NCBI RefSeq assembly: GCF_964036635.1
Contig: NZ_OZ038524.1
Span: 1,598,001 to 1,662,000 of the forward strand
Source of the DNA: Tenacibaculum dicentrarchi
Lineage (GTDB): Bacteria; Bacteroidota; Bacteroidia; Flavobacteriales; Flavobacteriaceae
Length of the DNA: 64,000 nucleotides
Direction of reading: 5' to 3'
In this document: positions 18,411 to 64,000 of the stretch, one piece after another
How the letters are laid out: the number at the start of each line of letters is the position of its first letter
Numbering within the stretch: the first letter of the stretch is position 1
Position numbers and translations under genes: made by a program
Notes under the pieces: generated by a model
Told to the model about the DNA's origin: nothing
Databases searched by the model: none
The model's input: the letters and a program-made list of their open reading frames with translations, nothing else

Positions 18411-19541
18411 GTGAAGAAAACCTCAGAACATATTACCTTAAAGCATTTACATATCAATAACTGCAAGATGATTGGGCTACAATTTAGCCCAAACAAGGTT
18501 ATTCATGCATTAATAAAAGAACTTCCTGAGCCTAAATGGAGTGCGGAGTTTAATATGGTTTATTTAAAGTATTCTAAGAAAAACATTAATGCTATTTTTC
18601 AAAAATTTAAAGGTGTTATCTGGATACATGGCAACGCTTTTTTCAAAGAAAAACCTATAAAAGACAATAGCTTACCCAATATAAATGGGTTTAGAAATAG
18701 GGTTAAAAAAGAAACTCTTAAGTATGCTCCTGAGAGTTACTTCTTAAAATTAGAGCTTAAAAGATACTCTTTAAACACTTGTAAAATCTATATTTCATTG
18801 TTTGAGAAATTTATAAATCATTTTTATCAACAACCAATAAATGATCTATCTGAAAAAGATATACAGCAGTATCTTCAAGTATTAGCGCATCAGAATAAAT
18901 CGAATAGTTATGTAAATCAATCTATAAACGCTATTAAATTTTACTATGAAACAGTGTTGGGTATGCCTAATCGATTTTACAGTGTAGATAGACCCAGAAA
19001 AGAACATAGGCTTCCTAAAATAATATCGAAAGAAGAAATTTTAGCTATTATAGATCACACAAATAATATAAAACATCGGTGTATTGTTAGCCTTTTATAT
19101 TCCGCAGGATTGCGTAGAAGTGAAATTCTTAATTTAAAGATAACGGATATAGACAGCAAAAGAATGCTAATACATGTTAACAATGCTAAGGGAAATAAAG
19201 ATAGGTATTCCTTACTTTCTACAACCGTTCTTAGAGAATTAAGGGTATATTATAAGGAGTGGCAACCTAAAACGTATTTGTTTGAAGGCAAGAAAGGGCA
19301 AAAATATTCACCTGAAAGTGTCGCTGTAATTGTTAAAAGAGCTACAAAAAAAGCTGGTATTCTAAAGAGAGTAACACCGCATATGTTAAGACATTCTTTT
19401 GCGACTCACCTTTTAGAAGGTGGTACTAATTTACGCTATATCCAAAATTTATTAGGGCATCGCTCTAGTAAAACAACAGAAATTTACACTCATGTTGCCT
19501 CTCATAATTTTAAATCAATTAAAAATCCCCTAGATTTATAA
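18411..19541 (+). CDS. tyrosine recombinase adjacent to the cassette array (Xer-like, not IntI)
   Basis: Start chosen at GTG 18411 (376 residues), because the 15 codons from ATG 18366 are purely hydrophobic/AT-derived and overlap the palindromes. Numbering from 18366, the catalytic residues are R250 (AGLRRSE), K275 (NAKGNKDR), H339 and R342 (HMLRHSF), H365 (LLGHRSS) and Y374 (EIYTHV), all intact. A SAM-like core-binding domain spans about 120-205. An additional N-terminal domain of about 100 residues (IGLQFSPNKVIHALI, PKWSAEFNMVYLKYS) precedes it. IntI integrases carry an extra segment of about 35 residues between the KDR strand and the HxLRH motif. Here that interval is short, as in XerC/XerD, so this is not a canonical integron integrase. 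The array of attC-like sites begins 43 bp after its stop, which makes it the likely cassette recombinase. Confidence 0.9.
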   Translation: MKKTSEHITLKHLHINNCKMIGLQFSPNKVIHALIKELPEPKWSAEFNMVYLKYSKKNINAIFQKFKGVIWIHGNAFFKEKPIKDNSLPNINGFRNRVKKETLKYAPESYFLKLELKRYSLNTCKIYISLFEKFINHFYQQPINDLSEKDIQQYLQVLAHQNKSNSYVNQSINAIKFYYETVLGMPNRFYSVDRPRKEHRLPKIISKEEILAIIDHTNNIKHRCIVSLLYSAGLRRSEILNLKITDIDSKRMLIHVNNAKGNKDRYSLLSTTVLRELRVYYKEWQPKTYLFEGKKGQKYSPESVAVIVKRATKKAGILKRVTPHMLRHSFATHLLEGGTNLRYIQNLLGHRSSKTTEIYTHVASHNFKSIKNPLDL

Positions 19542-19586
19542 AAAATATATGATATATATATGTAATAGTACGTATATTTGGTTGTT
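19542..19586 (+). other. attI-like junction between recombinase and first cassette
   Basis: AT-rich segment ending in GTATATTTGGTT followed by the first core GTTGTAA at 19584. The second copy of the same gene-less cassette (56325) starts at exactly the equivalent base, which fixes the boundary. The left side has no hairpin partner, unlike every other core in the array, as expected for a primary attachment site. Confidence 0.6.
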
Positions 19587-20135
19587 GTAATTAATGGCGG
19601 AATTTCAGCCTGAAATTCCTAATTAGTGATTTATCTTTTCTAGAAATTAATATTGAATAATATTACGCTGGAAAAATTGAAAATGACTGCTACTCTATTT
19701 TTAGAAAGTAAATCCTAAAAAAGAGAAAAAAACAGAATTAAACTCTGAAAAGTAAAGCGTGAATAAATCTGTGGAAATTAATTAAAGTGGAGTTTGAAGC
19801 AGAAACGTGAAAAAAGAAAGAATTTAAAGCTGAAATTAATTAAAGCGGAGTTTTAAGCGGAAACGTAAAAAAAAGGCAGAAATTAACGCTGAAAATAAAG
19901 CGTGAATTAATTAAGGCGGAGTTTTAAGTAGAAACGTAAAAAAAGAAAGAGAAATAAAACGGAAAAATTGAAAATTAAGAAATGAGAAATTTAGTTAGAA
20001 AATCACTAATTACAACAACATATATAATTTATTGCTAGTACTTATCTACTTACGAAAATCCTTAGGGGATTTTCTATTCCGTTTTTATTTAATATATTTA
20101 GAACTTGAAACACGCAACAAACCATATATAAAACC
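19584..20135 (+). other. cassette 1, gene-less family F
   Basis: No plausible gene. The body contains three copies of a purine-rich unit (AATTAATTAAAGyGGAGTTT, then AAGCGGAAACGTAAAAAAA). Nearly the same cassette recurs as cassette 44, which lacks 16 bp between short direct repeats. Confidence 0.75.
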
Positions 20136-20138
20136 GTT
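20010..20138 (+). repeat. attC-like site 1 (type A)
   Basis: Left core TTACAAC pairs with its own cassette start GTTGTAA. Stem halves begin ATATATAATTTATTGC and end GCAACAAACCATATAT; cap hairpin GAAAATCC/GGATTTTC. Ends in CGTT at 20135-20138. Confidence 0.8.
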
Positions 20139-20579
20139 AACCTGCATTAAGCCAAATTACACGAAATATTAACGTAATTAAACATTTTCGAAAAGTAAAA
20201 TTCTGACAAAGATTACATGAATCTGTTTGTAATGAAAACAGCGGACTTTCTAGCTTGTTTGCGCAATAGAAACGGAATCGTAAAACAGCAGATTTTGACA
20301 AATATTACGCAAAAATTTGTCTATAATTTTGAAATGAAAATGGCGGACTTTTTAGCTCGTTTACGCAATAGAAAATAAAAAAATGTTCGGAATATTGCCG
20401 ATTTTAGATTTTTTCACGTAAGTTTATATCAAAATTTAGACAAGTTAAACGCCCAATAAAAACGCTGAAAAATATGTGATTTTATAACGGTATTTTAATT
20501 AAAAAAGAAAAAAACGCACGTTAACAAAGTGTATGAGCGCATATTTTCCTGGCGGAAAAATACGCCACATACACATGGC
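20136..20579 (+). other. cassette 2, gene-less family A
   Basis: Starts GTTAACCTGCATTAAGCC. No open frame worth calling. Contains two tandem units starting A(T/C)TCTGACAAAGATTACG at 20200 and ATTTTGACAAATATTACG at 20292 (spacing 92 bp), a dyad TCGG-N7-CCGA at 20387-20401, and a conserved 3' module (20437-20500) shared with family B. Family A has 13 copies of 443-452 bp in this window. Confidence 0.8.
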
Positions 20580-20582
20580 GTT
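20519..20582 (+). repeat. attC-like site 2 (type B)
   Basis: Short type (64 bp). Left core CGTTAAC, stem GTGTATG/CATACAC, inner arms TTTTCC/GGAAAA around TGGC, right core GTTAAC. Confidence 0.8.
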
Positions 20583-21028
20583 AACCTGCATTAAGCCAAA
20601 TTACACGAAATATTAACGTAATTAAACATTTTCGAAAAGTAAAATTCTGACAAAGATTACGTGAATCTGTTTGTAATGAAAACAGCGGATTTCCTAGCTT
20701 ATTTGCGCAATCAAAACGGAATTGTAAAACAGCAGATTTTGAAAAATATCACGCAAGAATTTGTCTATAATTCCGAAATGAAAATGGCGGACTTTTTAGC
20801 TCGTTTGCGCAATCGAAAATAAAAATGAATAAATGTTCTGAATATTCCCGATTTTAGATTTTTTCACGTAAGTTTATATCAAAATTTAGACAAGTTAAAC
20901 GCCCAATAAAAACGCTGAAAAATATGTGATTTTATAACGGTATTTTAATTAAAAAAGAAAAAACGCACGTTAACAAAGTGTATGAGCGCATATTTTCCTA
21001 GCGGAAAAATACGCCACATACACATGGC
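20580..21028 (+). other. cassette 3, gene-less family A
   Basis: 449 bp, same organisation as cassette 2 with scattered substitutions. No gene seen. Confidence 0.8.
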
Positions 21029-21031
21029 GTT
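20968..21031 (+). repeat. attC-like site 3 (type B)
   Basis: Left core CGTTAAC, stem GTGTATG/CATACAC; cap has TAGC instead of TGGC. Confidence 0.8.
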
Positions 21032-21471
21032 AACCTGCATTAAGCCAAATTACACGGAATATTAACGTAATTAAGCGTTTTCGAAAAGTAAAATCCTGAC
21101 AAAGATTACGTGAATCTGTTTGTAATGAAAATAGCGGACTTTCTAGCTCGTTTACGCAATCGAAACGGAATCGTAAAACAGTAGATTTTGACAAATATCA
21201 CGTAAGAATTTGTCTATAATTCCGAAATGAAAATGGCGGACTTTTTAGCTCGTTTACGCAATAGAAAATAAAAAAATGTTCGGAATATTGCCGATTTTAG
21301 ATTTTTTCACGTAAGTTTATATCAAAATTTAGACAAGTTAAACGCCGAATAAAAACGCTGAAAAATATGTGATTTTATAACGGTATTTTAATTAAAAAAG
21401 AAAAAACGCACGTTAACAAAGTGTATGAGCGCATATTTTCCTGGCGGAAAAATACGCCACATACACATGGC
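21029..21471 (+). other. cassette 4, gene-less family A
   Basis: 443 bp, the shortest family A copy. No gene seen. Confidence 0.8.
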
Positions 21472-21474
21472 GTT
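21411..21474 (+). repeat. attC-like site 4 (type B)
   Basis: Left core CGTTAAC, stem GTGTATG/CATACAC, followed by CGTTGTGC of cassette 5. Confidence 0.8.
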
Positions 21475-21491
21475 GTGCTTAATTACAAAAT

Positions 21492-21926
21492 ATGGAATTT
21501 GAAAAATTAATCGGAAAAGATTTTGAAAAAATAAAATCTGACTTCAAATCATACAAAATAGAAAATAATGACTTTGAACTTGAACTTGAAGAAGGTTTTG
21601 AGAAGGAGTTTTATATAAATGCAGAAGACGAATCATTTGAAATGATTTTGACAAAAAATAAAATTATACATACAATTTTTATATACCCAAATGAAAGTGG
21701 AGAATTCTCATTTGCAGACTATAACATTAATATGGGTAAAACTGAAATTAGAAAACGTTTTGGAAACCCTAATAAAAAAGGAGGTCCAATGTCAAATTCA
21801 ATAATTGGAGTAAGCGGAGGTTTTGATAGGTTTGATAGAGAGATTTCGTATCACTTTGAATATGCAGATGAAAATCAAACTAAATTGAAAAAGATTACAT
21901 TGATGTCTTTAAATGTAGCTCCTTAA
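21492..21926 (+). CDS. cassette 5 protein, unknown
   Basis: 144 residues, acidic, no signal peptide or membrane helix. It has beta-rich segments and a conserved-looking block MGKTEIRKRFGNPNKKGGP, then GGFDRFDREISYHFEY. The pattern recalls small immunity-type or DUF proteins, but I cannot name the family. It is the only gene of cassette 5 (21472-22061) and starts 20 bp after the GTT core, so it must rely on read-through or an external promoter. Confidence 0.75.
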   Translation: MEFEKLIGKDFEKIKSDFKSYKIENNDFELELEEGFEKEFYINAEDESFEMILTKNKIIHTIFIYPNESGEFSFADYNINMGKTEIRKRFGNPNKKGGPMSNSIIGVSGGFDRFDREISYHFEYADENQTKLKKITLMSLNVAP

Positions 21927-21935
21927 AAAAACTAA

Positions 21936-22064
21936 GCACAACAATGTATAACCGCAATTACGGCGGATTCGACTACGTCCGAATCCAATCGAAATTGCTA
22001 AGGTCAGTGCTAAACCGAAAATAATCGCTAATTTAACCCGTAACTGACGGTTATACCAACCGTT
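21936..22064 (+). repeat. attC-like site 5 (unique type)
   Basis: Left core GCACAAC pairs with GTTGTGC at 21472. Stem GTATAACCG/CGGTTATAC. The remaining hairpin (CGGATTCG/CGAATCC) is unlike the other types. Confidence 0.75.
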
Positions 22065-22790
22065 AACTTTCATTTAAAAAAAATACGTGAAATTGGCAAA
22101 ATAAAGCGTTATCTTAAAGTAGAATCCTGATAAATATTACGCAAGTAGAAACGGAATCGTAAAGCTGTAGATTTTGACAAATATTATGTAATAATCTGTC
22201 TGTAATTCTGAAATTAAAACGGCGGAATTTCTAGCTCGTTTGCGTTATCGGAAATGGAAAACTGTGGGATTCTGACAAATATTACGCAAGAATTTGTCTG
22301 TAATTCTGAAATGAAAATGGCGGAATTTTAACCTATTTATCCAATAGAAACGGAATCGTAAAGCAGCAGATTTTGACAAATATTACGCATGAATTTGTTT
22401 GTGATTCCGAAATGAAAACGGCGGAATTTTAGCCTGTTTGCGCAATTAGGAATGGAAATGAAAAAAACTGTTCGGAATATTCTCGATTTTAGATTTTTTT
22501 CACGTAAGTTTATATGAAAATTTAGACAAGTTAAACGCCGAATAAAAACGCTGAAAAATATGTGATTTTATATCGGTATTTTAATTGTAAAAAAGGAAAA
22601 ATAAACGAAAAGTTAACAGTATGTATAAGTAATAAGGGAAATTGCTAAGTTGAAAATTTTGTGATTATTTACGAAATCCACCAAAGTTGAAATTTTATGG
22701 TTGAAGAAAATAACAATAAAATTGCAAATTTGGTTAAGTGCTTAAATGAAATTTATTACAAATCAAATCCTTACTACTTATACACGAGTC
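22062..22790 (+). other. cassette 6, gene-less family B
   Basis: 729 bp. Starts GTTAACTTTCATTT. Three tandem units begin at 22171, 22269 and 22370 (ATT(T/C)TGACAAATATTA; spacing 98 and 101 bp), followed by the 3' module also found in family A. No convincing gene. Confidence 0.75.
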
Positions 22791-22793
22791 GTT
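22611..22793 (+). repeat. attC-like site 6 (type E, long)
   Basis: Left core AGTTAAC pairs with GTTAACT at 22062. Outer stem GTATAAGTAATAA/TTACTACTTATAC with one A.C mismatch. 183 bp in all; the same type closes cassette 20. Confidence 0.75.
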
Positions 22794-22818
22794 GTATAAC
22801 ATTAAAAAAAATAAAAAT

Positions 22819-23847
22819 ATGAAAGTAATCCTAAAAATTATTAAGTGGATTGGGAAATTTATTGGTGGTATTTTATTACTACTTATATTATTGGGTTTAG
22901 GCTACCGATTGTTTAATTCAAAACCAGTTCCACCTGGTAAATTAGTTGATGTCAATGGCACTGAACTTCATATAAGAGCAGAAGGTAAAATAAATAATTT
23001 ACCAACCATTATTCTCGAATCAGGTGCAAATGGTCATACAGATATGCTTCATTGGATAGCGGAAGGATTAAAGAAAAATATGAGAGTTGTACGCTATGAT
23101 AGAGAAGGAAAATGGTTTAGCGAACCAAGTAAAGACAGTATTACACCAGAATTTTATGCCCATCAATTACACGAATTACTTGAAAAAAATGGAGAAAAAC
23201 CACCTTATATTTTAGCGGGTCACTCTATGGGCGGAGTCTACACTCGAATATTCAGAGATTTGTATCCGAATGAAGTAATAGGAATGGTGTTCCTTGATTC
23301 GAGTCATCCAGAACAATGGAAACGATTGGAACAAAAAGAATTGATTCCAAATAGTCAAATTAACTTTTTGAAAGTTATTGCAGTAATTTCAGATTTAGGC
23401 TTAAGAGGAATATACAATAAAATTGTAAGTCCAAAGCCTAGAAATGATGGTTTACCTCAAGAATGTCATATCCGTAATTTTAATCTAGTAAGTTCTTCAG
23501 GTAAAGTTTATCGTAGGAATCTAAAAGAAAATAGTATCAATGATGATATTCTTAAGCGGGCAGGTCAAGCAAGTGATTTGGATTCATTACCTGTTTTGGT
23601 TTTTACCGCTACTGAACAATATCGAGAATCTCAGAAAGAAAAATATAGAAATCAAGGTATTGATCCCGACAAACAAATTCAATTATGGTTTGAAATGCAA
23701 AAAGAATTAAAAGAACTATCTACGAACGGGAAACAATTTATTATTGAAGGAAGTCACGGTACTATAATTACAAAAAAAGAAAATGCTGAAATAATTAATA
23801 AAGAAATACTTTTAATGGCTGAAAAAATTGAAAAGGATAATAAATAA
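22819..23847 (+). CDS. membrane-anchored alpha/beta hydrolase
   Basis: 342 residues from ATG 22819. An N-terminal membrane helix (about 8-30) anchors the enzyme. The hydrolase fold has the nucleophile elbow GHSMGG (S136), an acidic residue in VFLDSSHPEQW and a C-terminal histidine in EGSHGTII. It probably hydrolyses an ester or amide; the substrate is unknown. It is alone in cassette 7 (22791-23977), starts 28 bp after the core and is preceded by an A-rich leader. Confidence 0.88.
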   Translation: MKVILKIIKWIGKFIGGILLLLILLGLGYRLFNSKPVPPGKLVDVNGTELHIRAEGKINNLPTIILESGANGHTDMLHWIAEGLKKNMRVVRYDREGKWFSEPSKDSITPEFYAHQLHELLEKNGEKPPYILAGHSMGGVYTRIFRDLYPNEVIGMVFLDSSHPEQWKRLEQKELIPNSQINFLKVIAVISDLGLRGIYNKIVSPKPRNDGLPQECHIRNFNLVSSSGKVYRRNLKENSINDDILKRAGQASDLDSLPVLVFTATEQYRESQKEKYRNQGIDPDKQIQLWFEMQKELKELSTNGKQFIIEGSHGTIITKKENAEIINKEILLMAEKIEKDNK

Positions 23848-23854
23848 AAACGTT

Positions 23855-23980
23855 ATACAACAATGTATATAAATCATTGGGCAATAGGCGATTAAACCAA
23901 AGTTAGTACTTGTAAATAAAGATAGAGATAAACCGAAACAAAGTGCTTATAAATGCCCAACGCTTCATATACCAACCGTT
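23855..23980 (+). repeat. attC-like site 7 (unique type)
   Basis: Left core ATACAAC pairs with GTTGTAT at 22791. Stem GTATATAAATCATTGGGC against GCCCAACGCTTCATATAC, with A.C at positions 7 and 12 and one T.C. Confidence 0.8.
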
Positions 23981-24427
23981 AACCTGCATTAAGCCAAATT
24001 ACACGGAATATTAACGGAATTAAGCGTTTTCGAAAAGTAAAATCCTGACAAAGATTACGTGAATCTGTTTGTAATGAAAATAGCGGACTTTCTAGCTCGT
24101 TTGCGCAATAGAAACGGAATCGTAAAACAGCAGATTTTAAAAAATATTACGTAAGATTTTGCTTATAATTCCGAAATGAAAATGGCGGACTTTTTAGCTC
24201 GTTTACGCAATCGAAAATAAAAATGAAAAAATGTTCGGAATATTCCCGATGTTAGATTTTTTAGCGTAAGTTTATATGAAAATTTAGACAAGTTAAACGC
24301 CGAATAAAAACGCTGAAAAATATGTGATTTTATAACGGTATTTTAATTAAAAAAGAAAAAAACGCACGTTAACAAAGTGTATGAGCGCATATTTTCCTGG
24401 CGGAAAAATACGCCACATACACATGGC
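23978..24427 (+). other. cassette 8, gene-less family A
   Basis: 450 bp family A copy. No gene seen. Confidence 0.8.
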
Positions 24428-24430
24428 GTT
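24367..24430 (+). repeat. attC-like site 8 (type B)
   Basis: Left core CGTTAAC, stem GTGTATG/CATACAC. Confidence 0.8.
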
Positions 24431-24871
24431 AACCTGCATTAAGCCAAATTACACGGAATATTAACGGAATTAAGCGTTTTCGAAAAGTAAAATCCTGACA
24501 AAGATTACGTGAATATATTTGTAATGAAAATAGCCGACTTTCTAGCTCGTTTACGCAATAGAAACGGAATCGTAAAACAGCAGATTTTGAAAAATATTAC
24601 GTAAGATTTTGCTTATAATTCTGAAATGAAAATGGCGGACTTTTTAGCTCGTTTACGCAATAGAAAATAAAAAAATGTTCGAAATATTGCCGATTTTAGA
24701 TTTTTTAGCGTAAGTTTATATGAAAATTTAGACAAGTTAAACGCCGAATAAAAATGCTGAAAAATATGTGATTTTATAACGGTATTTTAATTAAAAAAGA
24801 AAAAAACGCACGTTAACAAAGTGTATGAGCGCATATTTTCCTAGCGGAAAAATACGCCACATACACATGGC
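24428..24871 (+). other. cassette 9, gene-less family A
   Basis: 444 bp family A copy directly after another family A copy. No gene seen. Confidence 0.8.
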
Positions 24872-24874
24872 GTT
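24811..24874 (+). repeat. attC-like site 9 (type B)
   Basis: Left core CGTTAAC, stem GTGTATG/CATACAC, cap TAGC. Confidence 0.8.
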
Positions 24875-25382
24875 AGCTTTCATTAACAAAAAAAATGCGT
24901 GAAATTGGAAAAATAAAGCGTTTTCCTAAAGTAGAATCCTGATAAATATTACGCAATTAGAAATGGAATTTTAACGCAGAAGATTTTGAAAAATATTACG
25001 TAAGAATCTGTCCGCAATTATGAAATAGAAACGGTGGAATTTTATCCTGTTTATGCAATCGGAAATGAAAAACTGTGGGATTCTGACAAATATTACGCAA
25101 GAATTTGTCTGTAATTATGAAATGGAAACGGCAGACTTTAGCCTGTTTATGCAATCAGAAATGAAAATTTAGACAAGTTAAACGCCGAATAAAAATGCTG
25201 AAAAATATGTAGTTTTATATCGGTATTTTAATTGTAAAAAAGGAAAAATAAACGAAAAGCTAACAAAATATATAATTTATTGCTAGTGCTCGCCTACCTA
25301 CGAAAATCCTTAGGGGATTTTCTATTTCGTTTTTATTTACTAAATTAGTTGCTCGAAAAACGCAACAAACCATATATAAACC
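24872..25382 (+). other. cassette 10, gene-less family B
   Basis: 511 bp, starts GTTAGCTTTCATTAAC. Contains two to three of the repeat units seen in cassette 6 and a shortened 3' module. No convincing gene. Confidence 0.75.
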
Positions 25383-25385
25383 GTT
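25258..25385 (+). repeat. attC-like site 10 (type A)
   Basis: Left core AGCTAAC pairs with GTTAGCT at 24872. Stem TATATAATTTATTGC/GCAACAAACCATATA with A.C mismatches; cap GAAAATCC/GGATTTTC. Confidence 0.8.
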
Positions 25386-25836
25386 AGCTTTCATTAACAA
25401 AAAATTACGCAAAATTGGAAAAATAAAGCGGTTTAAAAAAGTAGAATCCTGATAAATATTACGCAAGAATCTGTCTGTAATTCTGAAATGAAAACGGCAG
25501 ACTTTAGCCTGTTTATGTAATCGGAAATGAAAAACTGTAGGATTCTGACAAATATTACGGAAAAATATGTTTGTAATTATGAAATGGAAACGGCAGACTT
25601 TAGCCTGTTTATGCAATCAGAAATGAAAATTTAGACAAGTTAAACGCCGAATAAAAACGCTGAAAATATGTGATTTTATATCGGTATTTTAATTGTAAAA
25701 AAAATAACGAAAAGCTAACAAAGTATATAAAAAATGCTTAATTTAGTCATAATACAAAAGTCAGTGCCGTTTTGCTACATCTGATTTTCCTGCGGAAAAT
25801 CCTCGCACACAAAACAGCACTTTTCATATACAAACC
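25383..25836 (+). other. cassette 11, gene-less family B
   Basis: 454 bp. Two repeat units plus the 3' module. A minus-strand frame across it reflects the internal repeat and I do not regard it as a gene. Confidence 0.75.
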
Positions 25837-25839
25837 GTT
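25713..25839 (+). repeat. attC-like site 11 (type C)
   Basis: Left core AGCTAAC. Stem GTATATAAAAAATGCT/AGCACTTTTCATATAC with A.C at positions 7 and 12. Inner arms GTTTTG/CAAAAC and GATTTTCC/GGAAAATC. Confidence 0.8.
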
Positions 25840-25868
25840 GTAAAGAATTAACAAAAACGAAAACTCAA

Positions 25869-26993
25869 ATGAACATTAAATATTTTTTTTTATTTTTTAT
25901 AACATCTTTTTCTTTTGGACAAACCATTGAAGAACAATACAGAGAAGCTTTATACAATACAGCCTATAACAATAATTTACAGAAAATTTTCGATAAAATT
26001 GTTGAGATTAAACCTCTTATAGCTACTGGTGATGATGATAAGGTTCTAGATTATTTATTACAACCTAATTCTGATTTTATTGTAACTCAGATAACATATA
26101 GAATTTTAGGAACTTTACCTGATGATAACCTGGAAAAAGATGGAAGTTTGGAAAGGGTTGGAATTGTAGATTTGATAGGAACACATCAATTTAAACCTGA
26201 AAAATATTCAATCTACTTAGATAGTTATGACGAAAAGCTTGATGAGAGAACTGTACTTGACTATCCTAAATCTTGGGAAGGAATGGATATGGAACTTGAT
26301 ATTATATCTCTTTCTTTTACAACAACTCCTGATGGAGAGACTATAAAATATATTAAGAGAAAAAGAAGTATCTCTATAGCAAAGTTAGATTACCTCCTTT
26401 ATAAAAACCCAGAATTAAAAAAGATTAAACTTACTCCTTCTCAGAAAGAAGAAATTAAAAATTCGAACCTAATTAAGGTTACAAGAAATATCAATTGGTC
26501 TCATAAAGATTTTGACTGTGATAATAGCGAAATAGAGATCTTAAAATTAAATAGAATATGGGGTGCTGATTTTTTGCAAGGAGCAATGTATAACTTACCA
26601 GAATGTATACAATACTTTGATAAATTAAAAGAAATTAGATTTTCTAATCACGAAATAAATCAAATACCAGAATATTTATCTTCTATGAAAACTTTAGAAG
26701 TGATCTATTTACCTAAGAATAAAATATTTTATTTACCTAAAAATCTAGGTGAATTCACTTCTTTAAAAGAAATAGATGTGTCTAATAATTTCATTTTAAA
26801 CCTTCCTGAGACTACATTTTTTCCTCTAAAAATTGAAAAAATTAATTTATCTAATAATTATTTGACTAAAATACCTAAACAAATATATAAATTAAAACAC
26901 TTAATACATCTTAATTTAAAAGGAAATAAAATATCAAAAAAGGATATTTTTAAATTAAAAAAGAAATTAAAAAACTGTGAGATATTATACTAA
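25869..26993 (+). CDS. secreted leucine-rich-repeat protein
   Basis: 374 residues. Signal peptide at about 1-18 (MNIKYFFLFFITSFSFGQ). The C-terminal half (about 235-370) carries five or six leucine-rich repeats of the LxxLxLxxNxIxxLP kind (TLEVIYLPKNKIFYLPKNL, SLKEIDVSNNFILNLPE), suited to protein binding. The N-terminal half is unclassified. Only gene of cassette 12 (25837-27127), 32 bp after the core. Confidence 0.85.
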   Translation: MNIKYFFLFFITSFSFGQTIEEQYREALYNTAYNNNLQKIFDKIVEIKPLIATGDDDKVLDYLLQPNSDFIVTQITYRILGTLPDDNLEKDGSLERVGIVDLIGTHQFKPEKYSIYLDSYDEKLDERTVLDYPKSWEGMDMELDIISLSFTTTPDGETIKYIKRKRSISIAKLDYLLYKNPELKKIKLTPSQKEEIKNSNLIKVTRNINWSHKDFDCDNSEIEILKLNRIWGADFLQGAMYNLPECIQYFDKLKEIRFSNHEINQIPEYLSSMKTLEVIYLPKNKIFYLPKNLGEFTSLKEIDVSNNFILNLPETTFFPLKIEKINLSNNYLTKIPKQIYKLKHLIHLNLKGNKISKKDIFKLKKKLKNCEILY

Positions 26994-27001
26994 AAAACTC
27001 T

Positions 27002-27130
27002 TTACAACACCGTATATAATTTATTGCTAGTTCTTGCCTACTTACGAAATTCCTCGCGGACTTTCTTGGTCGGTAATTATTTACTAAATTAGTTGCTTGA
27101 AACACGCAACAAACCATATACAAAAACGTT
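27002..27130 (+). repeat. attC-like site 12 (type A)
   Basis: Left core TTACAAC; the pairing extends through TCTTTACAAC with GTTGTAAAGA at 25837. Stem GTATATAATTTATTGC/GCAACAAACCATATAC with A.C at 7, 8 and 12. Confidence 0.82.
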
Positions 27131-27157
27131 GTGGTTAATGTCCGAAACGAAAAAGAA

Positions 27158-56219: not shown

Positions 56220-56327
56220 AAAATAAGCGAGATAGTAGTAGTATCAAGGTTTGTAGCCCGTTTCAATTTTCTTGTAAGCTGAACGTTTTGTGCTTCGAAT
56301 TCGCTTACTTTTCATATACCAACCGTT
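56202..56327 (+). repeat. attC-like site 43 (unique type)
   Basis: Left core ACACAAC; ACACACAAC pairs with GTTGTGTGT at 52871. Stem GTATATAAAAAATAAGCG/CGCTTACTTTTCATATAC with A.C at 7 and 12. Supplies the stop codon of the preceding gene. Confidence 0.83.
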
Positions 56328-56860
56328 GTAATTAATGGCGGAATTTCAGCCTGAAATTCCTAATTAGTGATTTTTATTTTCTAGAAATTAATATTGAATA
56401 ATATTACGCTGGAAAAATTGAAAATGACTGCTACTCTATTTTTAGAAAGTAAATCCTAAAAAAGAGAAAAAAACAGAATTAAACTCTGAAAAGTAAAGCG
56501 TGAATAAATCTGTGGAAATTAATTAAAGTCGAGTTTGAAGCAGAAACGTGAAAAAAGAAAGAATTTAAAGCGGAGTTTTAAGCGGAAACGTAAAAAAAAG
56601 GCAGAAATTAACGCTGAAAATAAAGCGTGAATTAATTAAGGCGGAGTTTTAAGTAGAAACGTAAAAAAAGAAAGAGAAATAAAACGGAAAAATTGAAAAT
56701 TAAGAAATGAGAAATTTAGTTAGAAAATCACTAATTACAACAACATATATAATTTATTGCTAGTGCTTATCTACTTACGAAAATCCTTAGGGGATTTTCT
56801 ATTCCGTTTTTATTTACTAAATTAGTTGCTTCAAACACGCAACAAACCATATATAAAACC
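56325..56860 (+). other. cassette 44, gene-less family F
   Basis: 536 bp, second copy of cassette 1, missing 16 bp between short AAAG repeats. No gene seen. Confidence 0.77.
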
Positions 56861-56863
56861 GTT
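56735..56863 (+). repeat. attC-like site 44 (type A)
   Basis: Left core TTACAAC; AATTACAAC pairs with GTTGTAATT at 56325. Stem ATATATAATTTATTGC/GCAACAAACCATATAT. Confidence 0.82.
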
Positions 56864-56887
56864 GGGGCTAATTAAAAAAAGAAAGAA

Positions 56888-58489
56888 ATGACATTTTTAC
56901 TTACTATTTGTATAATAATTATTATCGTTTTATTATCTAAAAATTCTTCAATAAAAAAAGAAAGAGATAATAAAGGAAAAGAAATATCTGATTTAAATGA
57001 TGAATTAAAAAAAGAAAGAGATAATAAAGAAAAGGAAATATCTGATTTAAATGAAAAATTTAAAAAGGAGAAAAATAATTTTTCAGAATACCAAAAATCT
57101 ACTGAATACTTAAAAAAATATGAGCCAATAAAAGATATTGATAATGAATTAAAAAAAATTTCTAATGAAATTGAGCAAAGGTTAGAAAAAACTAAAATTG
57201 AAGTTGAAGAGATTATTCAAAGTTCAAAATCAGAAGTAAATACAATAAGAAAAGAAGCAAGAGAAAAGGCAACTGAAACAAAAAATAGAGCTGAAATTAT
57301 ATTAGAAAATGCTCATAAAATTGCAACAAAAATTGAAAATGAAGCTAATTCAAAAGCTGAAAGTATAGCCGGAGAAGCTTGGGAAGCAAAGAATAATGCT
57401 GAACAGTATCAAAAAACTGTAAAAGCTATGAAAAATATCATTAAAGGTTATGGAGACGAATATTTAATACCTAACCATTCACTTCTAGACGATTTAGCAG
57501 AAGAATATAATCATAAAAAAGCTGGTCAAGAACTTGCACAAATTAGAACACTTATAAAGTCTATGATTAAAAATAATGAAGTTGCAGAATGTGATTATGT
57601 TGAAGTTCATAGAAAAACAACAGCAATTGAATTTGTCCTAGATGCCTTTAATGGAAAAGTTGATACTATAATGGCTAAAGTTAAATATGACAATTATGGC
57701 AAACTTCAACAATCTTTAAAAGATGCTTTTCGTCTGGTAAATCATAATGGTAAAGCCTTTAGAAATGCAAAAATTACAAATAGATATTATGAAACCGTTT
57801 TAGAACAATTAAAATTAGCAGTTACAGTTCACGAAATAAAGAAACAAGATTTACAAGAGCAAAGAGAAATACGAGAAGCTATTAGAGAAGAAGAAAAAGC
57901 AAGAAGAGATTTTGAAAAAGCTAGAAAAGAAGCTGAAAAAGAAGAAAAAATGCTTGAAAAAGCAAGGAAAGAAATTGAGGCAAAATTACTAAAAGTTGCT
58001 GACGAAGATAGAGCTAAATTTGAGCAAGAACTAGAAAATATTAAGCAAAAACTATTTATAGCAGAAGAGAAAGGACAAAGAGCAATGTCAATGGCTCAAC
58101 AAACAAAAAGAGGACACGTTTACATAATTTCTAATGTTGGTTCATTTGGAGAAAACGTATATAAAATTGGACTAACAAGAAGGTTAGAACCTTTAGACAG
58201 AGTTAAAGAATTAGGAGATGCTTCTGTTCCATTTACATTTGACGTTCACGCAATGATTCATTCAGAAGATGCTCCGAAATTAGAAAAAGAATTACATAGA
58301 ACTTTCGATTCTGAAAGAGTAAATAAAGTAAATTACAGAAAGGAATTTTTCGCTATGCCAATTAGTGAAATCAAGGCTAAAGTCGATACATTTAAATTAG
58401 AAACACATTGGACAATGAAATCAGAAGCTTTGGAATACAGAGAGAGTTTAGAAATGAAGAAAAGACTGCTAGAAAAAACAAATAACTAG
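56888..58489 (+). CDS. DUF4041 protein with C-terminal GIY-YIG (T5orf172) domain
   Basis: 533 residues. N-terminal membrane helix (about 2-17), then a coiled coil with an imperfect 20-residue repeat (KERDNKxKEISDLN), long helical regions up to about 400 including the DUF4041 core, and at about 412-500 a T5orf172/MUG113-type GIY-YIG domain (GHVYIISNVGSFGENVYKIGLTRR, then LEKELHRTF). This architecture is frequent in phage-defence loci and may cut nucleic acid at the membrane. Only gene of cassette 45 (56861-58613), 27 bp after the core; its TAG abuts the attC. Confidence 0.87.
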   Translation: MTFLLTICIIIIIVLLSKNSSIKKERDNKGKEISDLNDELKKERDNKEKEISDLNEKFKKEKNNFSEYQKSTEYLKKYEPIKDIDNELKKISNEIEQRLEKTKIEVEEIIQSSKSEVNTIRKEAREKATETKNRAEIILENAHKIATKIENEANSKAESIAGEAWEAKNNAEQYQKTVKAMKNIIKGYGDEYLIPNHSLLDDLAEEYNHKKAGQELAQIRTLIKSMIKNNEVAECDYVEVHRKTTAIEFVLDAFNGKVDTIMAKVKYDNYGKLQQSLKDAFRLVNHNGKAFRNAKITNRYYETVLEQLKLAVTVHEIKKQDLQEQREIREAIREEEKARRDFEKARKEAEKEEKMLEKARKEIEAKLLKVADEDRAKFEQELENIKQKLFIAEEKGQRAMSMAQQTKRGHVYIISNVGSFGENVYKIGLTRRLEPLDRVKELGDASVPFTFDVHAMIHSEDAPKLEKELHRTFDSERVNKVNYRKEFFAMPISEIKAKVDTFKLETHWTMKSEALEYRESLEMKKRLLEKTNN

Positions 58490-58616
58490 CCCCAACAACG
58501 TATATAATTTATTGCTAGTACTAGCCTACTTACGAAAATCCTTAGGGATTTTCTATTCCGTTTTTATTTACTAAATTTAGTGCTTTAAAAACGCAACAAA
58601 CCATATACAAACCGTT
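58490..58616 (+). repeat. attC-like site 45 (type A)
   Basis: Left core CCCCAAC; AGCCCCAAC pairs with GTTGGGGCT at 56861. Stem GTATATAATTTATTGC/GCAACAAACCATATAC with A.C at 7, 8 and 12. Confidence 0.83.
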
Positions 58617-59061
58617 AACCTGCATTAAGCCAAATTACACGGAATATTAACGTAATTAAGCGTTTTCGAAAAGTAAAATCCTGACAAAGATTACGTGAAT
58701 CTATTTGTAATGAAAATAGCCGACTTTCTAGCTCGTTTACGCAATAGAAACGGAATCGTAAAACAGTAGATTTTGACAAATATTACGTAAGATTTTGCTT
58801 ATAATTCCGAAATAAAACCGTAGATTTTTTAGCTCGTTTACGCAATCGAAAATAAAAATGAAAAAATGTTCGGAATATTACCGATTTTAGATTTTTTAGC
58901 GTAAGTTTATATGAAAATTTAGACAAGTTAAACGCCGAATAAAAACGCTGAAAAATGTGTGATTTTATAACGGTATTTTAATTAAAAAAGAAAAAACGCA
59001 CGTTAACAAAGTGTATGAGCGCATATTTTCCTGGCGGAAAAATACGCCACATACACTAGGC
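58614..59061 (+). other. cassette 46, gene-less family A
   Basis: 448 bp family A copy. No gene seen. Confidence 0.8.
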
Positions 59062-59064
59062 GTT
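59001..59064 (+). repeat. attC-like site 46 (type B)
   Basis: Left core CGTTAAC, stem GTGTATG/CATACAC, CACTAGGCGTT ending. Confidence 0.8.
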
Positions 59065-59513
59065 AACCTGCATTAAGCCAATTACACGAAATATTAACGT
59101 AATTAAACATTTTCGAAAAGTAAAATTCTGACAAAGATTACGTGAATCTGTTTGTAATGAAAACAGCGGATTTCCTAGCTTATTTGCGCAATCAAAACGG
59201 AATTGTAAAACAGCAGATTTTGAAAAATATCACGCAAGAATTTGTCTATAATTCCGAAATGAAAATGGCGGACTTTTTAGCTCGTTTACGCAATCGAAAA
59301 TAAAAATGAAAAAATGTTCGGAATATTCCCGATGTTAGATTTTTTAGCGTAAGTTTATATGAAAATTTAGACAAGTTAAACGCCGAATAAAAACGCTGAA
59401 AAATATGTGATTTTATAACGGTATTTTAATTAAAAAAAAAGAAAAAAACGCACGTTAACAAAGTGTATGAGCGCATATTTTCCTGGCGGAAAAATACGCC
59501 ACATACACTAGGC
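59062..59513 (+). other. cassette 47, gene-less family A
   Basis: 452 bp family A copy. No gene seen. Confidence 0.8.
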
Positions 59514-59516
59514 GTT
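59453..59516 (+). repeat. attC-like site 47 (type B)
   Basis: Left core CGTTAAC, stem GTGTATG/CATACAC, CACTAGGCGTT ending. Confidence 0.8.
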
Positions 59517-60067
59517 GCAAGTAATTGGCAAAAAATCACGCAAATTATAATGTGTTTTTTAAGGCTAATAAAGAAGTATAATCGGAAACTATTTCCCTAA
59601 AAACCCTCTAAAGAATGAGCAAAATACTGAAAAACTTACGCAACTGTTGATTTAAAAGACTGACGCATAAATCAATAAAAACGGAATGAATAAAACTGAC
59701 CGAATTACCATCCAAAATCTGAATTTATAACGGCTGTAGAATTGAGAAAATGCAGAAAATTGGAATTGGAAAATTGACGCAACCGCTGATTTAAAATATT
59801 GACGCATAAATCAATAAAAACGGAATGAATAAAACTGACCGAATTATCATCCAAAATCTGAATTTATAACGGCTGTAGAATTGAGAAAATGCAGAAAATT
59901 GGAATTGGAAAAAACAGCATTATAAACTGAAAAACAAACTACTTGCAACAAAATATATAATTTATTGCTAGTGCGAACCTACTTACGAAAATCCTTAGGG
60001 GATTTTCTATTCCGTTTTTATTTACTTAATTTAGTGCTTCAAAAATGCAACAAACCATATATAAAAC
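59514..60067 (+). other. cassette 48, gene-less family D
   Basis: 554 bp, body nearly identical to cassette 36 (two 118-bp-class units) but closed by a type A instead of a type C hairpin. No gene seen. Confidence 0.77.
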
Positions 60068-60070
60068 GTT
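59943..60070 (+). repeat. attC-like site 48 (type A)
   Basis: Left core TTGCAAC; ACTTGCAAC pairs with GTTGCAAGT at 59514. Stem TATATAATTTATTGC/GCAACAAACCATATA. Confidence 0.81.
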
Positions 60071-60516
60071 GTAAGTAATTCGCAAAAATATCGCAATTAG
60101 AACCTGATTTTTAAGTAAATACAGAATTTGAAAATATCGCTATAAAAATATTACGAATAAAATTTAGAATCTATAAATACTTGAATTTACATAAAACCTG
60201 AAAATAAAATCGACCGAATTATTACGCAAAACATGAATTTATAACATTTGTAGAATTGAGCAAAATACAGAATTGAAATCGCAAAATTTACGCAAAATCT
60301 GAAAATAAAATTGACTGAATTATTATGTGAAATCTGAATTTATAACGTTTGTAGAATTGAAAAAATACAGAATTGAAAAAAAACAAACTACTTACAACAA
60401 AGTATATAAAAAATGCTTAATTTAGTCATAACACAAAAGTCAGTGCCGTTTTGCTACATCTGATTTTCCTGCGGAAAATCCTCGCACACAAAACAGCACT
60501 TTTCATATACAAACAC
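60068..60516 (+). other. cassette 49, gene-less family C
   Basis: 449 bp, starts GTTGTAAGTAATTCGC, two repeat units. No gene seen. Confidence 0.78.
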
Positions 60517-60519
60517 GTT
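60392..60519 (+). repeat. attC-like site 49 (type C)
   Basis: Left core TTACAAC. Stem GTATATAAAAAATGCT/AGCACTTTTCATATAC with A.C at 7 and 12. Confidence 0.82.
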
Positions 60520-60543
60520 AGCAAACATTAAAATAAATCACGA

Positions 60544-61596
60544 ATGAATAGAACTTTTTTTGAATATTTAGGAATTGCTGATATGGAAAAAATCCATTCT
60601 CAAATACTACAATGGATATTATCAAAAGACAATAAAAGTTTGACTTCAAATCAAAAAAATGAATTTATTTCTGACTTTCTGAATATTACCAACTTTGAAG
60701 TTTCTGAAATAATAACAGAATATGAAAAAATAGATATTTTAATAAAATCCCAAAATGGTGTAATCTGTATTGAGAATAAACTTAAATCTTCACAGCATTC
60801 AAATCAATTAAATAGATATAAAGAATCTATTCAACAAAAATATGGTAATATAAATACAGACTTTTTCTTTTTAACTTTAATAGATGAAAAATCAAATAAT
60901 GACAATTGGAAAAACATTAGCTACAATCAATTATTGAATTCACTACAGAAACTTAAAATACAAAATAACACTGACGGACTAATTTTATTGGAGTATATCA
61001 AAACACTTGAGAATTTTTCAATTATTATAGCTGACTTTCTTGAAACACCTTCTGATTTCATTAATGTATTTGATGATGGACACAAAACCAAACATCAAAA
61101 AAAGGAAGAAATTAAAAACCCAAAACAGCGATTTATAAGTGACAACCAACTTGAAACTATTTTTCAAAAAATGTATTTTAAAAAAGTGGCTGACTTATTA
61201 AACTTAACAGATTATTACATCGTAGAAACTCACGGGAATGCCATTTTGGGAGTACCTATAGAAAAAGAGATTTTAATAGACGGTAAATATTTCAATTTTG
61301 GTTTCGACTATCAAAAAGGAACATTTAAAACAATGTGTATTTCGACAGATTATGAAAATTCAAAATCAACAGACATTCCTAGTCAAATCCCCGAATTATT
61401 TGAAAAAATAAAGCACAATCAAAAGTATGGATATAAGAGAGTAAACAAACCAAGAACTAAAGCTCAACATTCTCTTACAAAGAATAACAAAAACAATATT
61501 GGAATAGATATTAAACAATTTGCAGAAATTTTTAAAATCGAAATGAATTTATCAAAAGAATTAATACAGAACGAAATAATAAAAAACGTTTGCTAA
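60544..61596 (+). CDS. PD-(D/E)XK nuclease-superfamily protein, copy 1
   Basis: 350 residues. PDDEXK_4-type pattern: FFEYLGIADMEKIHSQILQWIL, then D64 in EKIDILIKS and E77/K79 in GVICIENKLKS, followed by QLNRYKESIQQKYG and DFFFLTLID. These proteins are commonly found in defence islands. The gene starts 27 bp after the core of cassette 50 (60517-61777). Its stop TAA is part of the attC left core (TGCTAAC), so cassette and gene end together. Confidence 0.87.
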   Translation: MNRTFFEYLGIADMEKIHSQILQWILSKDNKSLTSNQKNEFISDFLNITNFEVSEIITEYEKIDILIKSQNGVICIENKLKSSQHSNQLNRYKESIQQKYGNINTDFFFLTLIDEKSNNDNWKNISYNQLLNSLQKLKIQNNTDGLILLEYIKTLENFSIIIADFLETPSDFINVFDDGHKTKHQKKEEIKNPKQRFISDNQLETIFQKMYFKKVADLLNLTDYYIVETHGNAILGVPIEKEILIDGKYFNFGFDYQKGTFKTMCISTDYENSKSTDIPSQIPELFEKIKHNQKYGYKRVNKPRTKAQHSLTKNNKNNIGIDIKQFAEIFKIEMNLSKELIQNEIIKNVC

Positions 61597-61780
61597 CAAC
61601 GTGTATAAAACATAGCTAGCAAGTGCTAAACCCAAAGTTATCGCTTATTTACAAAGTCCGCCAAATATAAAATTTGCGTTTAAAAATAAAAAAATAAAAG
61701 CAAAATATTTATATTCGGCTAAGTATATAACCTGAAACTGTAATCTATTTTTACACGCTACGTTTCATACACAAACCGTT
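61591..61780 (+). repeat. attC-like site 50 (type D, long)
   Basis: Left core TGCTAAC; GTTTGCTAAC pairs with GTTAGCAAAC at 60517. Stem GTGTATAAAACATAGC/GCTACGTTTCATACAC with A.C at positions 7 and 12. 190 bp. Confidence 0.83.
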
Positions 61781-61804
61781 AGCAAACATTAAAATAAATC
61801 ACGA

Positions 61805-62857
61805 ATGAATAGAACTTTTTTTGAATATTTAGGAATTGCTGATATGGAAAAAATCCATTCTCAAATACTACAATGGATATTATCAAAAGACAATAAAAGT
61901 TTGACTTCAAATCAAAAAAATGAATTTATTTCTGACTTTCTGAATATTACCAACTTTGAAGTTTCTGAAATAATAACAGAATATGAAAAAATAGATATTT
62001 TAATAAAATCCCAAAATGGTGTAATCTGTATTGAGAATAAACTTAAATCTTCACAGCATTCAAATCAATTAAATAGATATAAAGAATCTATTCAACAAAA
62101 ATATGGTAATATAAATACAGACTTTTTCTTTTTAACTTTAATAGATGAAAAATCAAATAATGACAATTGGAAAAACATTAGCTACAATCAATTATTGAAT
62201 TCACTACAGAAACTTAAAATACAAAATAACACTGACGGACTAATTTTATTGGAGTATATCAAAACACTTGAGAATTTTTCAATTATTATAGCTGACTTTC
62301 TTGAAACACCTTCTGATTTCATTAATGTATTTGATGATGGACACAAAACCAAACATCAAAAAAAGGAAGAAATTAAAAACCCAAAACAGCGATTTATAAG
62401 TGACAACCAACTTGAAACTATTTTTCAAAAAATGTATTTTAAAAAAGTGGCTGACTTATTAAACTTAACAGATTATTACATCGTAGAAACTCACGGGAAT
62501 GCCATTTTGGGAGTACCTATAGAAAAAGAGATTTTAATAGACGGTAAATATTTCAATTTTGGTTTCGACTATCAAAAAGGAACATTTAAAACAATGTGTA
62601 TTTCGACAGATTATGAAAATTCAAAATCAACAGACATTCCTAGTCAAATCCCCGAATTATTTGAAAAAATAAAGCACAATCAAAAGTATGGATATAAGAG
62701 AGTAAACAAACCAAGAACTAAAGCTCAACATTCTCTTACAAAGAATAACAAAAACAATATTGGAATAGATATTAAACAATTTGCAGAAATTTTTAAAATC
62801 GAAATGAATTTATCAAAAGAATTAATACAGAACGAAATAATAAAAAACGTTTGCTAA
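61805..62857 (+). CDS. PD-(D/E)XK nuclease-superfamily protein, copy 2
   Basis: 350 residues, identical in protein sequence to copy 1. Cassette 51 (61778-63038) has the same 1261-bp length as cassette 50, attC included. See copy 1 for motifs (D64, E77, K79). Confidence 0.87.
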   Translation: MNRTFFEYLGIADMEKIHSQILQWILSKDNKSLTSNQKNEFISDFLNITNFEVSEIITEYEKIDILIKSQNGVICIENKLKSSQHSNQLNRYKESIQQKYGNINTDFFFLTLIDEKSNNDNWKNISYNQLLNSLQKLKIQNNTDGLILLEYIKTLENFSIIIADFLETPSDFINVFDDGHKTKHQKKEEIKNPKQRFISDNQLETIFQKMYFKKVADLLNLTDYYIVETHGNAILGVPIEKEILIDGKYFNFGFDYQKGTFKTMCISTDYENSKSTDIPSQIPELFEKIKHNQKYGYKRVNKPRTKAQHSLTKNNKNNIGIDIKQFAEIFKIEMNLSKELIQNEIIKNVC

Positions 62858-63041
62858 CAACGTGTATAAAACATAGCTAGCAAGTGCTAAACCCAAAGTT
62901 ATCGCTTATTTACAAAGTCCGCCAAATATAAAATTTGCGTTTAAAAATAAAAAAATAAAAGCAAAATATTTATATTCGGCTAAGTATATAACCTGAAACT
63001 GTAATCTATTTTTACACGCTACGTTTCATACACAAACCGTT
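62852..63041 (+). repeat. attC-like site 51 (type D, long)
   Basis: Identical to site 50, shifted by 1261 bp. Confidence 0.83.
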
Positions 63042-63065
63042 AGCAAACATTAAAATAAATCACGA

Positions 63066-64000
63066 ATGAATAGAACTTTTTTTGAATATTTAGGAATTGC
63101 TGATATGGAAAAAATCCATTCTCAAATACTACAATGGATATTATCAAAAGACAATAAAAGTTTGACTTCAAATCAAAAAAATGAATTTATTTCTGACTTT
63201 CTGAATATTACCAACTTTGAAGTTTCTGAAATAATAACAGAATATGAAAAAATAGATATTTTAATAAAATCCCAAAATGGTGTAATCTGTATTGAGAATA
63301 AACTTAAATCTTCACAGCATTCAAATCAATTAAATAGATATAAAGAATCTATTCAACAAAAATATGGTAATATAAATACAGACTTTTTCTTTTTAACTTT
63401 AATAGATGAAAAATCAAATAATGACAATTGGAAAAACATTAGCTACAATCAATTATTGAATTCACTACAGAAACTTAAAATACAAAATAACACTGACGGA
63501 CTAATTTTATTGGAGTATATCAAAACACTTGAGAATTTTTCAATTATTATAGCTGACTTTCTTGAAACACCTTCTGATTTCATTAATGTATTTGATGATG
63601 GACACAAAACCAAACATCAAAAAAAGGAAGAAATTAAAAACCCAAAACAGCGATTTATAAGTGACAACCAACTTGAAACTATTTTTCAAAAAATGTATTT
63701 TAAAAAAGTGGCTGACTTATTAAACTTAACAGATTATTACATCGTAGAAACTCACGGGAATGCCATTTTGGGAGTACCTATAGAAAAAGAGATTTTAATA
63801 GACGGTAAATATTTCAATTTTGGTTTCGACTATCAAAAAGGAACATTTAAAACAATGTGTATTTCGACAGATTATGAAAATTCAAAATCAACAGACATTC
63901 CTAGTCAAATCCCCGAATTATTTGAAAAAATAAAGCACAATCAAAAGTATGGATATAAGAGAGTAAACAAACCAAGAACTAAAGCTCAACATTCTCTTAC
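63066..64000 (+). CDS. PD-(D/E)XK nuclease-superfamily protein, copy 3 (cut by window end)
   Basis: Third tandem copy, starting at ATG 63066 in cassette 52 (from 63039). The 311 visible codons read the same as copies 1 and 2. The window ends before the stop, so only completeness is unknown. Confidence 0.85.
   Translation, partial: MNRTFFEYLGIADMEKIHSQILQWILSKDNKSLTSNQKNEFISDFLNITNFEVSEIITEYEKIDILIKSQNGVICIENKLKSSQHSNQLNRYKESIQQKYGNINTDFFFLTLIDEKSNNDNWKNISYNQLLNSLQKLKIQNNTDGLILLEYIKTLENFSIIIADFLETPSDFINVFDDGHKTKHQKKEEIKNPKQRFISDNQLETIFQKMYFKKVADLLNLTDYYIVETHGNAILGVPIEKEILIDGKYFNFGFDYQKGTFKTMCISTDYENSKSTDIPSQIPELFEKIKHNQKYGYKRVNKPRTKAQHSL

Follow-up and report, generated by a model that had tools for sequence, protein, structure and literature searches.

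A XerA-like tyrosine recombinase, in place of IntI, probably serves a 181-kb integron-like cassette array in Tenacibaculum dicentrarchi

Integrons are defined by the integrase IntI, whose insertion I2 is held to be the solution for recombining folded attC sites. Can cassettes be gathered into arrays without it? The question is raised by a 64,000-nt stretch of Tenacibaculum dicentrarchi (the window; positions C1:1598001-1662000 of a complete 2.81-Mb genome), in which a tyrosine recombinase gene on the forward strand (18411..19541) is followed by a long series of cassettes with attC-like hairpins. The original prediction made from this DNA was that a Xer-like enzyme does the integrase's job here. 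The widest reading, to which we give a probability of roughly 0.65, is that a second, IntI-independent integron lineage is spread across Bacteroidota – XerA-like recombinases, most of them carrying a HARP-type domain where IntI has I2, acting on folded attC sites whose strand is chosen through G.T wobbles; cassette capture would then either have arisen more than once or predate IntI. Bacteroidota would then likely have an integron kind of their own, apparently undescribed, that captures genes such as phage defences. That the recombinase at 18411-19541 runs the array, excising cassettes and inserting them at an attI-like site, appears highly probable from the arrangement of the locus, from the lack of any IntI, and from the recurrence of the same linkage among relatives.

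The recombinase has 376 aa when read from the GTG at 18411, the start chosen here because homologues begin at the corresponding position; from the first ATG (18366) the frame would have 391 aa. An N-terminal domain (18465..18635) precedes the core-binding and catalytic domains (18717..19517), and the catalytic R-K-H-R-H-Y residues are kept. The IntI insertion between K and HxxR, of about 42 residues, is absent: K244 and H308 (376-aa numbering) lie 64 residues apart, close to the roughly 60 first estimated between K and HxLRH. The first catalytic Arg and the HxxR His are 89 residues apart, within the 89-90 found in 106 of 109 family proteins, as compared with 93 and 96 in the XerC- and XerD-like proteins of the host genome and 131-132 in 13 IntI-type proteins. 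Against NF040815 (XerA-type) the protein scores 230.8 bits, above the curated cut-off of 220; it stays below the cut-offs of TIGR02249 (IntI; 195.9 bits, cut-off 265), TIGR02224 (XerC; 186.5 bits, cut-off 335.15) and TIGR02225 (XerD; 187.8 bits, cut-off 329.6). The phylogenetic comparison with IntI and XerC/D that had been proposed for this enzyme places it outside the IntI clade (support 100/100); branches between groups are weakly supported, and the tree does not indicate the Xer-like group from which IntI originated. Foldseek and VIA searches with the whole structural model returned recombinase-type folds, the nearest being XerA (5hxy), and the nearest named homologue is a Tenacibaculum piscium protein (87%). 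The closest kin is thus the XerA-like group and not XerC/D. XerA proper serves chromosome dimer resolution in archaea; unlike it, the present enzyme comes with an array, an attI-like site and an added HARP-like domain.

A true IntI elsewhere in the genome could account for the array and would have spoken against the original prediction. No protein exceeds the TIGR02249 cut-off in the complete host genome, nor in any of the 249 Flavobacteriaceae genomes to which it belongs, and as a positive control the same model was above its cut-off in 8/8 genomes with IntI. These figures bear on a rival account in which a true IntI built the array and was then lost, leaving a cluster of attC sites lacking an integrase (CALIN) beside an unrelated recombinase. 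A survey of bacterial genomes found CALINs to be roughly as frequent as complete integrons (PMC9024848), and attC-like sites persist in 4/9 genomes that have no family recombinase. The array, however, has the recombinase at its attI end, with the first GTT boundary 25-152 nt 3' of the stop codon in 43 sites from this family; the canonical core GTTRRRY fits only 6 of the 198 sites described below (RYYYAAC likewise 6/198); and an attC model built from the family is blank in 13 IntI-type loci. Together with the empty IntI searches, this makes a relict CALIN very improbable.

The array itself (19584..64000, forward strand) lies head to tail directly 3' of the recombinase and runs on past the window to about 200688 in window numbering (C1:1798688), a length of 181 kb. 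A stricter hairpin count gives 198 attC-like sites between 19541 and 200688, 50 of them in the window, where order-2 Markov shuffles average 1.6 sites and never exceed 5; the 18.3 kb before the array and the 41 kb after it hold one site each. Dynamic programming, with each hairpin matched to the start of its own cassette, recognises 184 cassettes, of which 48 lie wholly within the window; these counts are lower bounds because some units were merged (e.g. 42853-44247 and 49390-50699). The initial figure of at least 52 head-to-tail cassettes was therefore close for the window, and the array proves larger than had been seen. When the whole host genome was scanned with the attC covariance model, at least 142 matches were obtained (a floor, as 150 candidates were scored), all but one within the array. 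The lone site outside lies at C1:2514722-2514863.

Each cassette opens at C^GTT and closes with a hairpin. In the excised circle of an integron cassette, the start letters and the cassette's own R'' arm meet and must pair, and the start of the next cassette need not. In the present array R'' complements the start of its own cassette over 9-10 nt in 110/184 cassettes and over 6 nt in 53, and reaches 9-10 nt with the start of the next cassette in only 11/184. The 6-nt matches come mostly from the GTTAACCTGC family, whose core GTTAAC is palindromic; ten cassettes match over just 3 nt, of which some are caller errors and others may be decayed. GTTAACCTGC is also the commonest start (51/184 cassettes), followed by GTTAGCTTTC (23). 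The first attC-like site (20006..20135, forward), with R'' CTAATTACAAC and the boundary CCATATATAAAACC^GTT, is followed by a gene-less cassette of the GTTAACCTGC family that has a short attC of 57 nt (20136..20579, forward), and in the cassette at 21472..22061 (forward), which carries an open reading frame (ORF) of 144 aa, R'' TAAGCACAAC is complementary to the start GTTGTGCTTA. An ORF of at least 60 aa is present in 96 cassettes and reads along the array in 90 of these, with a median start at 33 nt; the 88/184 without one make up nearly half of the array.

Identical cassettes (449-2447 bp) form eleven pairs, two adjacent and nine with 9-159 kb between their members. Identity extends 1-5 nt leftward in 10/11 pairs and 3-4 nt rightward in 8/11, which corresponds to the shared C-GTT, and is longer where a similar neighbour precedes or follows. 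That the repeats are merely non-mobile palindromic elements or terminators between ordinary genes is hardly credible on this evidence: the hairpin does lie 3' of the ORF in ORF-bearing units, as a terminator would, but complementarity to the unit's own start serves no role in a terminator, 88 of the 184 units lack an ORF of at least 60 aa, and identical units far apart mostly have identity ending at C^GTT. An Rfam search found no known family within the array.

The attC-like sites are hairpins of 57-190 nt whose common features recur in other genera. The caller imposed only AAC and GTT, and the remaining consensus letters emerged unforced: in 165 sites from other genomes, C precedes GTT in 100%, A follows AAC in 99% and the L box contains TA in 100%. 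An alignment of 46 sites contains three helices, with 95.0% of cells paired as against 77.1% when shuffled and 24-36% when slid by 1-3 columns, and covariation across genera amounts to 125 double changes, compared with 35.8 in shuffles. The spacer next to R'' is usually 3 nt long and that next to R' 5-6 nt. The canonical cores are as scarce across genera as in the array, RYYYAAC and GTTRRRY fitting 12 and 13 of 191 sites. Anatomically the locus thus reads as integron-like, and by the IntI definition it is not an integron because IntI and the attC consensus were both tested for and neither was found. In the window array and its relatives the sites come in three sizes (57-60, about 120 and about 183 nt), with steps of about 63 nt between them; a helical-phase rule considered for this spacing was dropped because the long hairpin loops share sequence, and shared ancestry may explain the three sizes.

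The two strands of these hairpins are not equivalent. On the top strand A stands opposite C at columns 28/130 of the alignment in 44/46 sites, and a second A versus C mismatch occurs at start position 11 in 203/239; both are T.G wobbles on the bottom strand. With DNA folding parameters the bottom-strand hairpin is the stabler in 173/178 cross-genus sites, by a mean of 3.5 kcal/mol, and in 107/110 sites of this array. Composition explains part of this difference and not most of it, since Markov shuffles favour the bottom strand in only 123/178 and by 1.1 kcal/mol. (Locus L040 lies on the same contig as L181 and was dropped from the linkage and folding tables; both are kept among the 165/191 and 239 sites.) We infer from the folding models that the wobble asymmetry sets the choice of strand. 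The recombinase might alternatively move cassettes using attC as double-stranded DNA, with the hairpin a by-product of two inverted binding sites. The lack of I2 suits such a scheme, and so does the ability of IntI to recombine attI in double-stranded form (PMC4792948). Double-stranded use would need neither of two things that are observed, however – pairing and compensatory changes that continue inward past the R and L boxes into a third helix, and A.C/G.T positions that favour folding of one strand in 173/178 sites – and these make it unlikely.

Between the recombinase gene and the first cassette lies an attI-like site (19542..19586, forward). It contains the palindrome ATATATGT-AATAGT-ACGTATAT (19556-19577) with 7/8 pairs, counted by eye – the script's best had another centre and the same 7/8 – and its centre lies 17 nt before the first GTT. 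The letters of the palindrome vary between genomes. Among the 43 sites, which include a few with a chain only two cassettes long (e.g. L188), perfect 8-bp arms occur in 21 (20 of them centred 16-18 nt before GTT) and seven of eight pairs in a further 12, with shuffles giving 0.55 and 6.55, respectively. We regard the palindrome as a putative attI core, and an operator would be an alternative reading of the same letters.

If the recombinase serves the array, the two should occur together elsewhere, and homologues regularly found without arrays would speak against the prediction. A homologue at E 1e-60 or better is present in 132/249 Flavobacteriaceae genomes (mostly one per genus), and a contig scan gave at least 80 loci, which are a sample. 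Loci with less than 2 kb of downstream DNA were excluded. The remaining 66 with a HARP-like domain have a chain of at least two cassettes downstream in 51 cases and of at least three in 38, as against 77/660 and 2/660 (0.3%) in shuffled downstream DNA and, for at least two, 3/66 in upstream DNA; two more of the 66 have at least three chained cassettes upstream. Ten loci without the domain have at least two downstream in five cases and at least three upstream in three. Across 69 family loci the attC covariance model gives 337 sites, and across 50 control recombinase loci, XerC/D types and the 13 IntI-type loci among them, a single one; the controls are the 52 loci L050-L101 minus L056 and L080, which are probably truncated members of the family. 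Sites from 32 of the 69 had gone into the model, and the fairer measure is taken on the 37 loci held out, of which 34 (31 plus 3 more) have a match anywhere in the locus; one of the 37, L181, equals a contributor. Among 15 more distant loci, 8 have a match. Homologues, in short, do not regularly stand without arrays.

The same association is seen at genome level. Every complete genome in which a homologue reaches 1e-60 (24/24) contains attC sites. From 117 'negative' genomes 20 were listed, and 11 of these have a diverged or partial homologue, all 11 with attC sites; the other nine have only XerC/D-level matches, and of these four have attC sites (2, 8, 16 and 35) and five have none. The contrast, 35/35 with a family recombinase versus 4/9 without, gives a Fisher p of 1.2e-4, with the cut (E <1e-35) that splits the 20 genomes into 11 and 9 chosen after the data had been seen. 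At least 61/198 Bacteroidota genomes hold attC-like sites of this type (16 candidates were scored per genome). In the common architecture, that of the window and most array-linked relatives, the gene reads toward an array 3' of it. A second architecture is seen in L184, L196, L201, L202 and L203, where the array lies upstream and points away, judging by the reversed spacer asymmetry; two of these enzymes are 355 aa with a HARP-like domain and three are 277-279 aa without.

Cassettes may also travel as pdif or Xer modules, gene modules that the host XerCD moves at short double-stranded dif-like sites of 28 bp. By such an account the host's XerC and XerD would move the present cassettes and the neighbouring recombinase would do other work. 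The likeness is that gene modules are moved by Xer-type recombination, XerC- and XerD-like genes are present in the host genome, and with its two arms the attI-like palindrome looks much like a Xer site. Yet the attC sites are 57-190-nt hairpins with covarying stems rather than dif-like sites, arrays follow the XerA-like family and attC-like sites are absent from 5/9 genomes whose matches are all of XerC/D level, and XerC/D types are among the control loci in which the attC model found its single site. There is accordingly very little to be said for the host XerC and XerD as movers of this array.

What, then, stands in for I2? The original prediction had expected a different extra domain. One is indeed present, and HARP-like, but it is not universal among array-linked relatives. 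The N-terminal domain of the window enzyme (beta-alpha-beta-beta-alpha), additional to the core-binding and catalytic domains, is assigned through relatives: alone it scores against no Pfam family, and relatives reach a best E of 3.7e-7 against PF07443 (HARP). PDB 4o66 (HARP) ranks top for the domain at E 0.005; in Foldseek with the domain alone nothing falls under E 0.001 and 4o66 appears at E 1.1 (ranks 3-4), and in VIA it is merely tied for best. DUF5710 (PF18974) matches equally many relatives with a weaker best E and may be an alternative name for the same fold. A local HARP profile matches 95/109 family proteins, a figure that is partly circular because 26 N-domains of this same family went into the profile; its 0/54 is free of that circularity. 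By these profiles, most relatives carry a HARP-like N-terminal domain. HARP/SMARCAL1 is reported to have annealing-helicase activity (PMC4035279), and we propose, tentatively and at somewhat less than even odds, that the HARP-like domain is what grips folded attC. Relatives of about 277-305 aa without it also lie beside arrays; L191, for example, has 305 aa and ten chained cassettes 3' of its gene, in a genome that also has a full-length copy. Because of such enzymes, including those of 277-279 aa, neither I2 nor HARP seems to be needed everywhere.

In the mechanism that we favour, the attC bottom strand, extruded or single-stranded, would fold into a hairpin, kept paired by G.T wobbles at the positions of the top-strand A.C mismatches. 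The R and L stems would be bound by two copies of the recombinase, with the HARP-like domain perhaps helping to hold the folded DNA, the job of I2 in IntI, and the strand cut would fall within the shared C-GTT. The cassette would then join attI or another attC, and the junction would be resolved via replication, as in IntI integrons. Strand choice would be encoded by the conserved wobble positions and by the asymmetry of 3 versus 5-6 nt spacers.

In general description, Vibrio cholerae-type superintegrons have an integrase gene beside attI, more than 100 cassettes, some of them gene-less, mostly one ORF per cassette in one direction, attC R and L boxes and a G-TT boundary, all of which find their likeness here. 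In contrast to those integrons, the present locus has no IntI or I2, its R boxes are not GTTRRRY/RYYYAAC, its R stem is 10-12 nt, G.T/A.C asymmetry and a HARP-like domain are present, and the recombinase, in loci of the window's type, reads toward the array. In Treponema denticola the integrase gene also faces its array, and that integrase is a true IntI. Archaeal integrons likewise extend cassette arrays beyond the classical hosts, but the IntI-specific additional domain is kept there (PMC9668308). Closer to the present host, a CALIN of the Polaribacter phage P12002L is described as an integrase-less cluster of flavobacterial-phage attC sites and was tested with IntI1; its attC2 recombined into attI1 via the bottom strand, and the top strand gave no recombinants (PMC9892861), an experiment that bears indirectly on the present attC type. 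This lytic phage (L234, 14495-14633 and 30000-32933) has six matches to our attC model, one of which may be attC2; five lie in or beside the DNA methyltransferase region, and one is AT-rich with a large bias correction.

No description of such IntI-independent Bacteroidota integrons was found in the published literature, preprints excluded. Bacteroidota are among the phyla listed with integrons (PMC8618304, PMC9668308), IntI-based as far as those listings describe them, and intI has been found in the Bacteroidetes/Chlorobi group (PMC2426708). A 2022 survey by IntI domains reports few Bacteroidota integrons – earlier only cassette-less integrases, then one complete integron in Salinibacter (PMC9024848) – and beside that single example an array of 181 kb, with attC-like sites of its type in at least 61/198 Bacteroidota genomes, changes the integron map. 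Members of the present family may already have been seen unnoticed, because the insertion is not fully conserved in the integron-like subgroup of PMC8138268 (section 7). Escudero et al. describe the origin of I2 as a chicken-and-egg paradox, in which I2 needs attC and attC needs I2 (PMC4792948); attC-like hairpins that occur without I2 make this paradox directly testable.

The cargo includes likely defence genes. Ten of the 24 window cassette ORFs were scanned, and 6/10 of the proteins match PADLOC defence models, for which reason the arrays may serve as a discovery ground for phage defences, as well as a gene-sharing route among Bacteroidota. Reading along the array are cassettes for a TIR-domain protein (27813..28761, ORF 27843-28628), an SpbK-like TIR protein (32793..33802, ORF 32820-33671; E 2.2e-47), a Gp49-family protein (41991..42852, ORF 42078-42434), the family to which HigB-like toxins belong, AbiTii (44248..45272, ORF 44273-45139) and a TmtA anti-phage protein (52871..56324, ORF 52872-56219; E 2e-218), and three tandem copies of a 1261-bp cassette for a PDDEXK_4 / PDC-S26 protein with a nuclease fold (60517..64000), the first two identical and the third ending at 64299, past the window. 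On the reverse strand are an AAA ATPase (cassette 34587..36588, ORF 35085-36383), with PtuA-, AriA- and GajA-type models among its matches, and a type II methyltransferase (cassette 37901..41014, ORF 39011-40807). Two other Tenacibaculum species have the Gp49 cassette at 99% and 93% identity, and the match stops at the boundary plus GTT; a third has an 85% relative of the methyltransferase cassette, with the match confined to the cassette.

Relatives with attC-model matches are also carried by plasmids of Persicobacter, Rufibacter and Pontibacter (L231, L232 and L233). The Pontibacter plasmid has the recombinase and a chain of three cassettes beside conjugation genes; the Rufibacter plasmid is less clear, with two cassettes with 7-nt words and one model match. 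Most plasmid records matching the recombinase family (50/70) are from Acinetobacter. Plasmid pHH1107 (FJ012881.1; L230 6052-8073) carries a C-terminal family fragment, 'TnpF', with 54% identity over residues 127-360. Downstream of it comes a palindrome whose centre, like those of the attI-like sites, lies 17 nt ahead of a GTT, and tet(X3) follows in the place of a first cassette. This layout suggests possible past capture of tet(X3) at an attI-like site; no matching cassette end was detected 3' of tet(X3).

Two further elements were noted in the window. A stretch of about 1.1 kb (45300-46405) within the cassette at 45273-47719 has copies of 82-98% identity in other parts of the host genome and in three further Tenacibaculum genomes; it ends inside that cassette and is probably an insertion sequence, perhaps IS30-like from its last codons. 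A Flavo-1 small RNA (RF01705) was matched by Rfam at 4269-4351.

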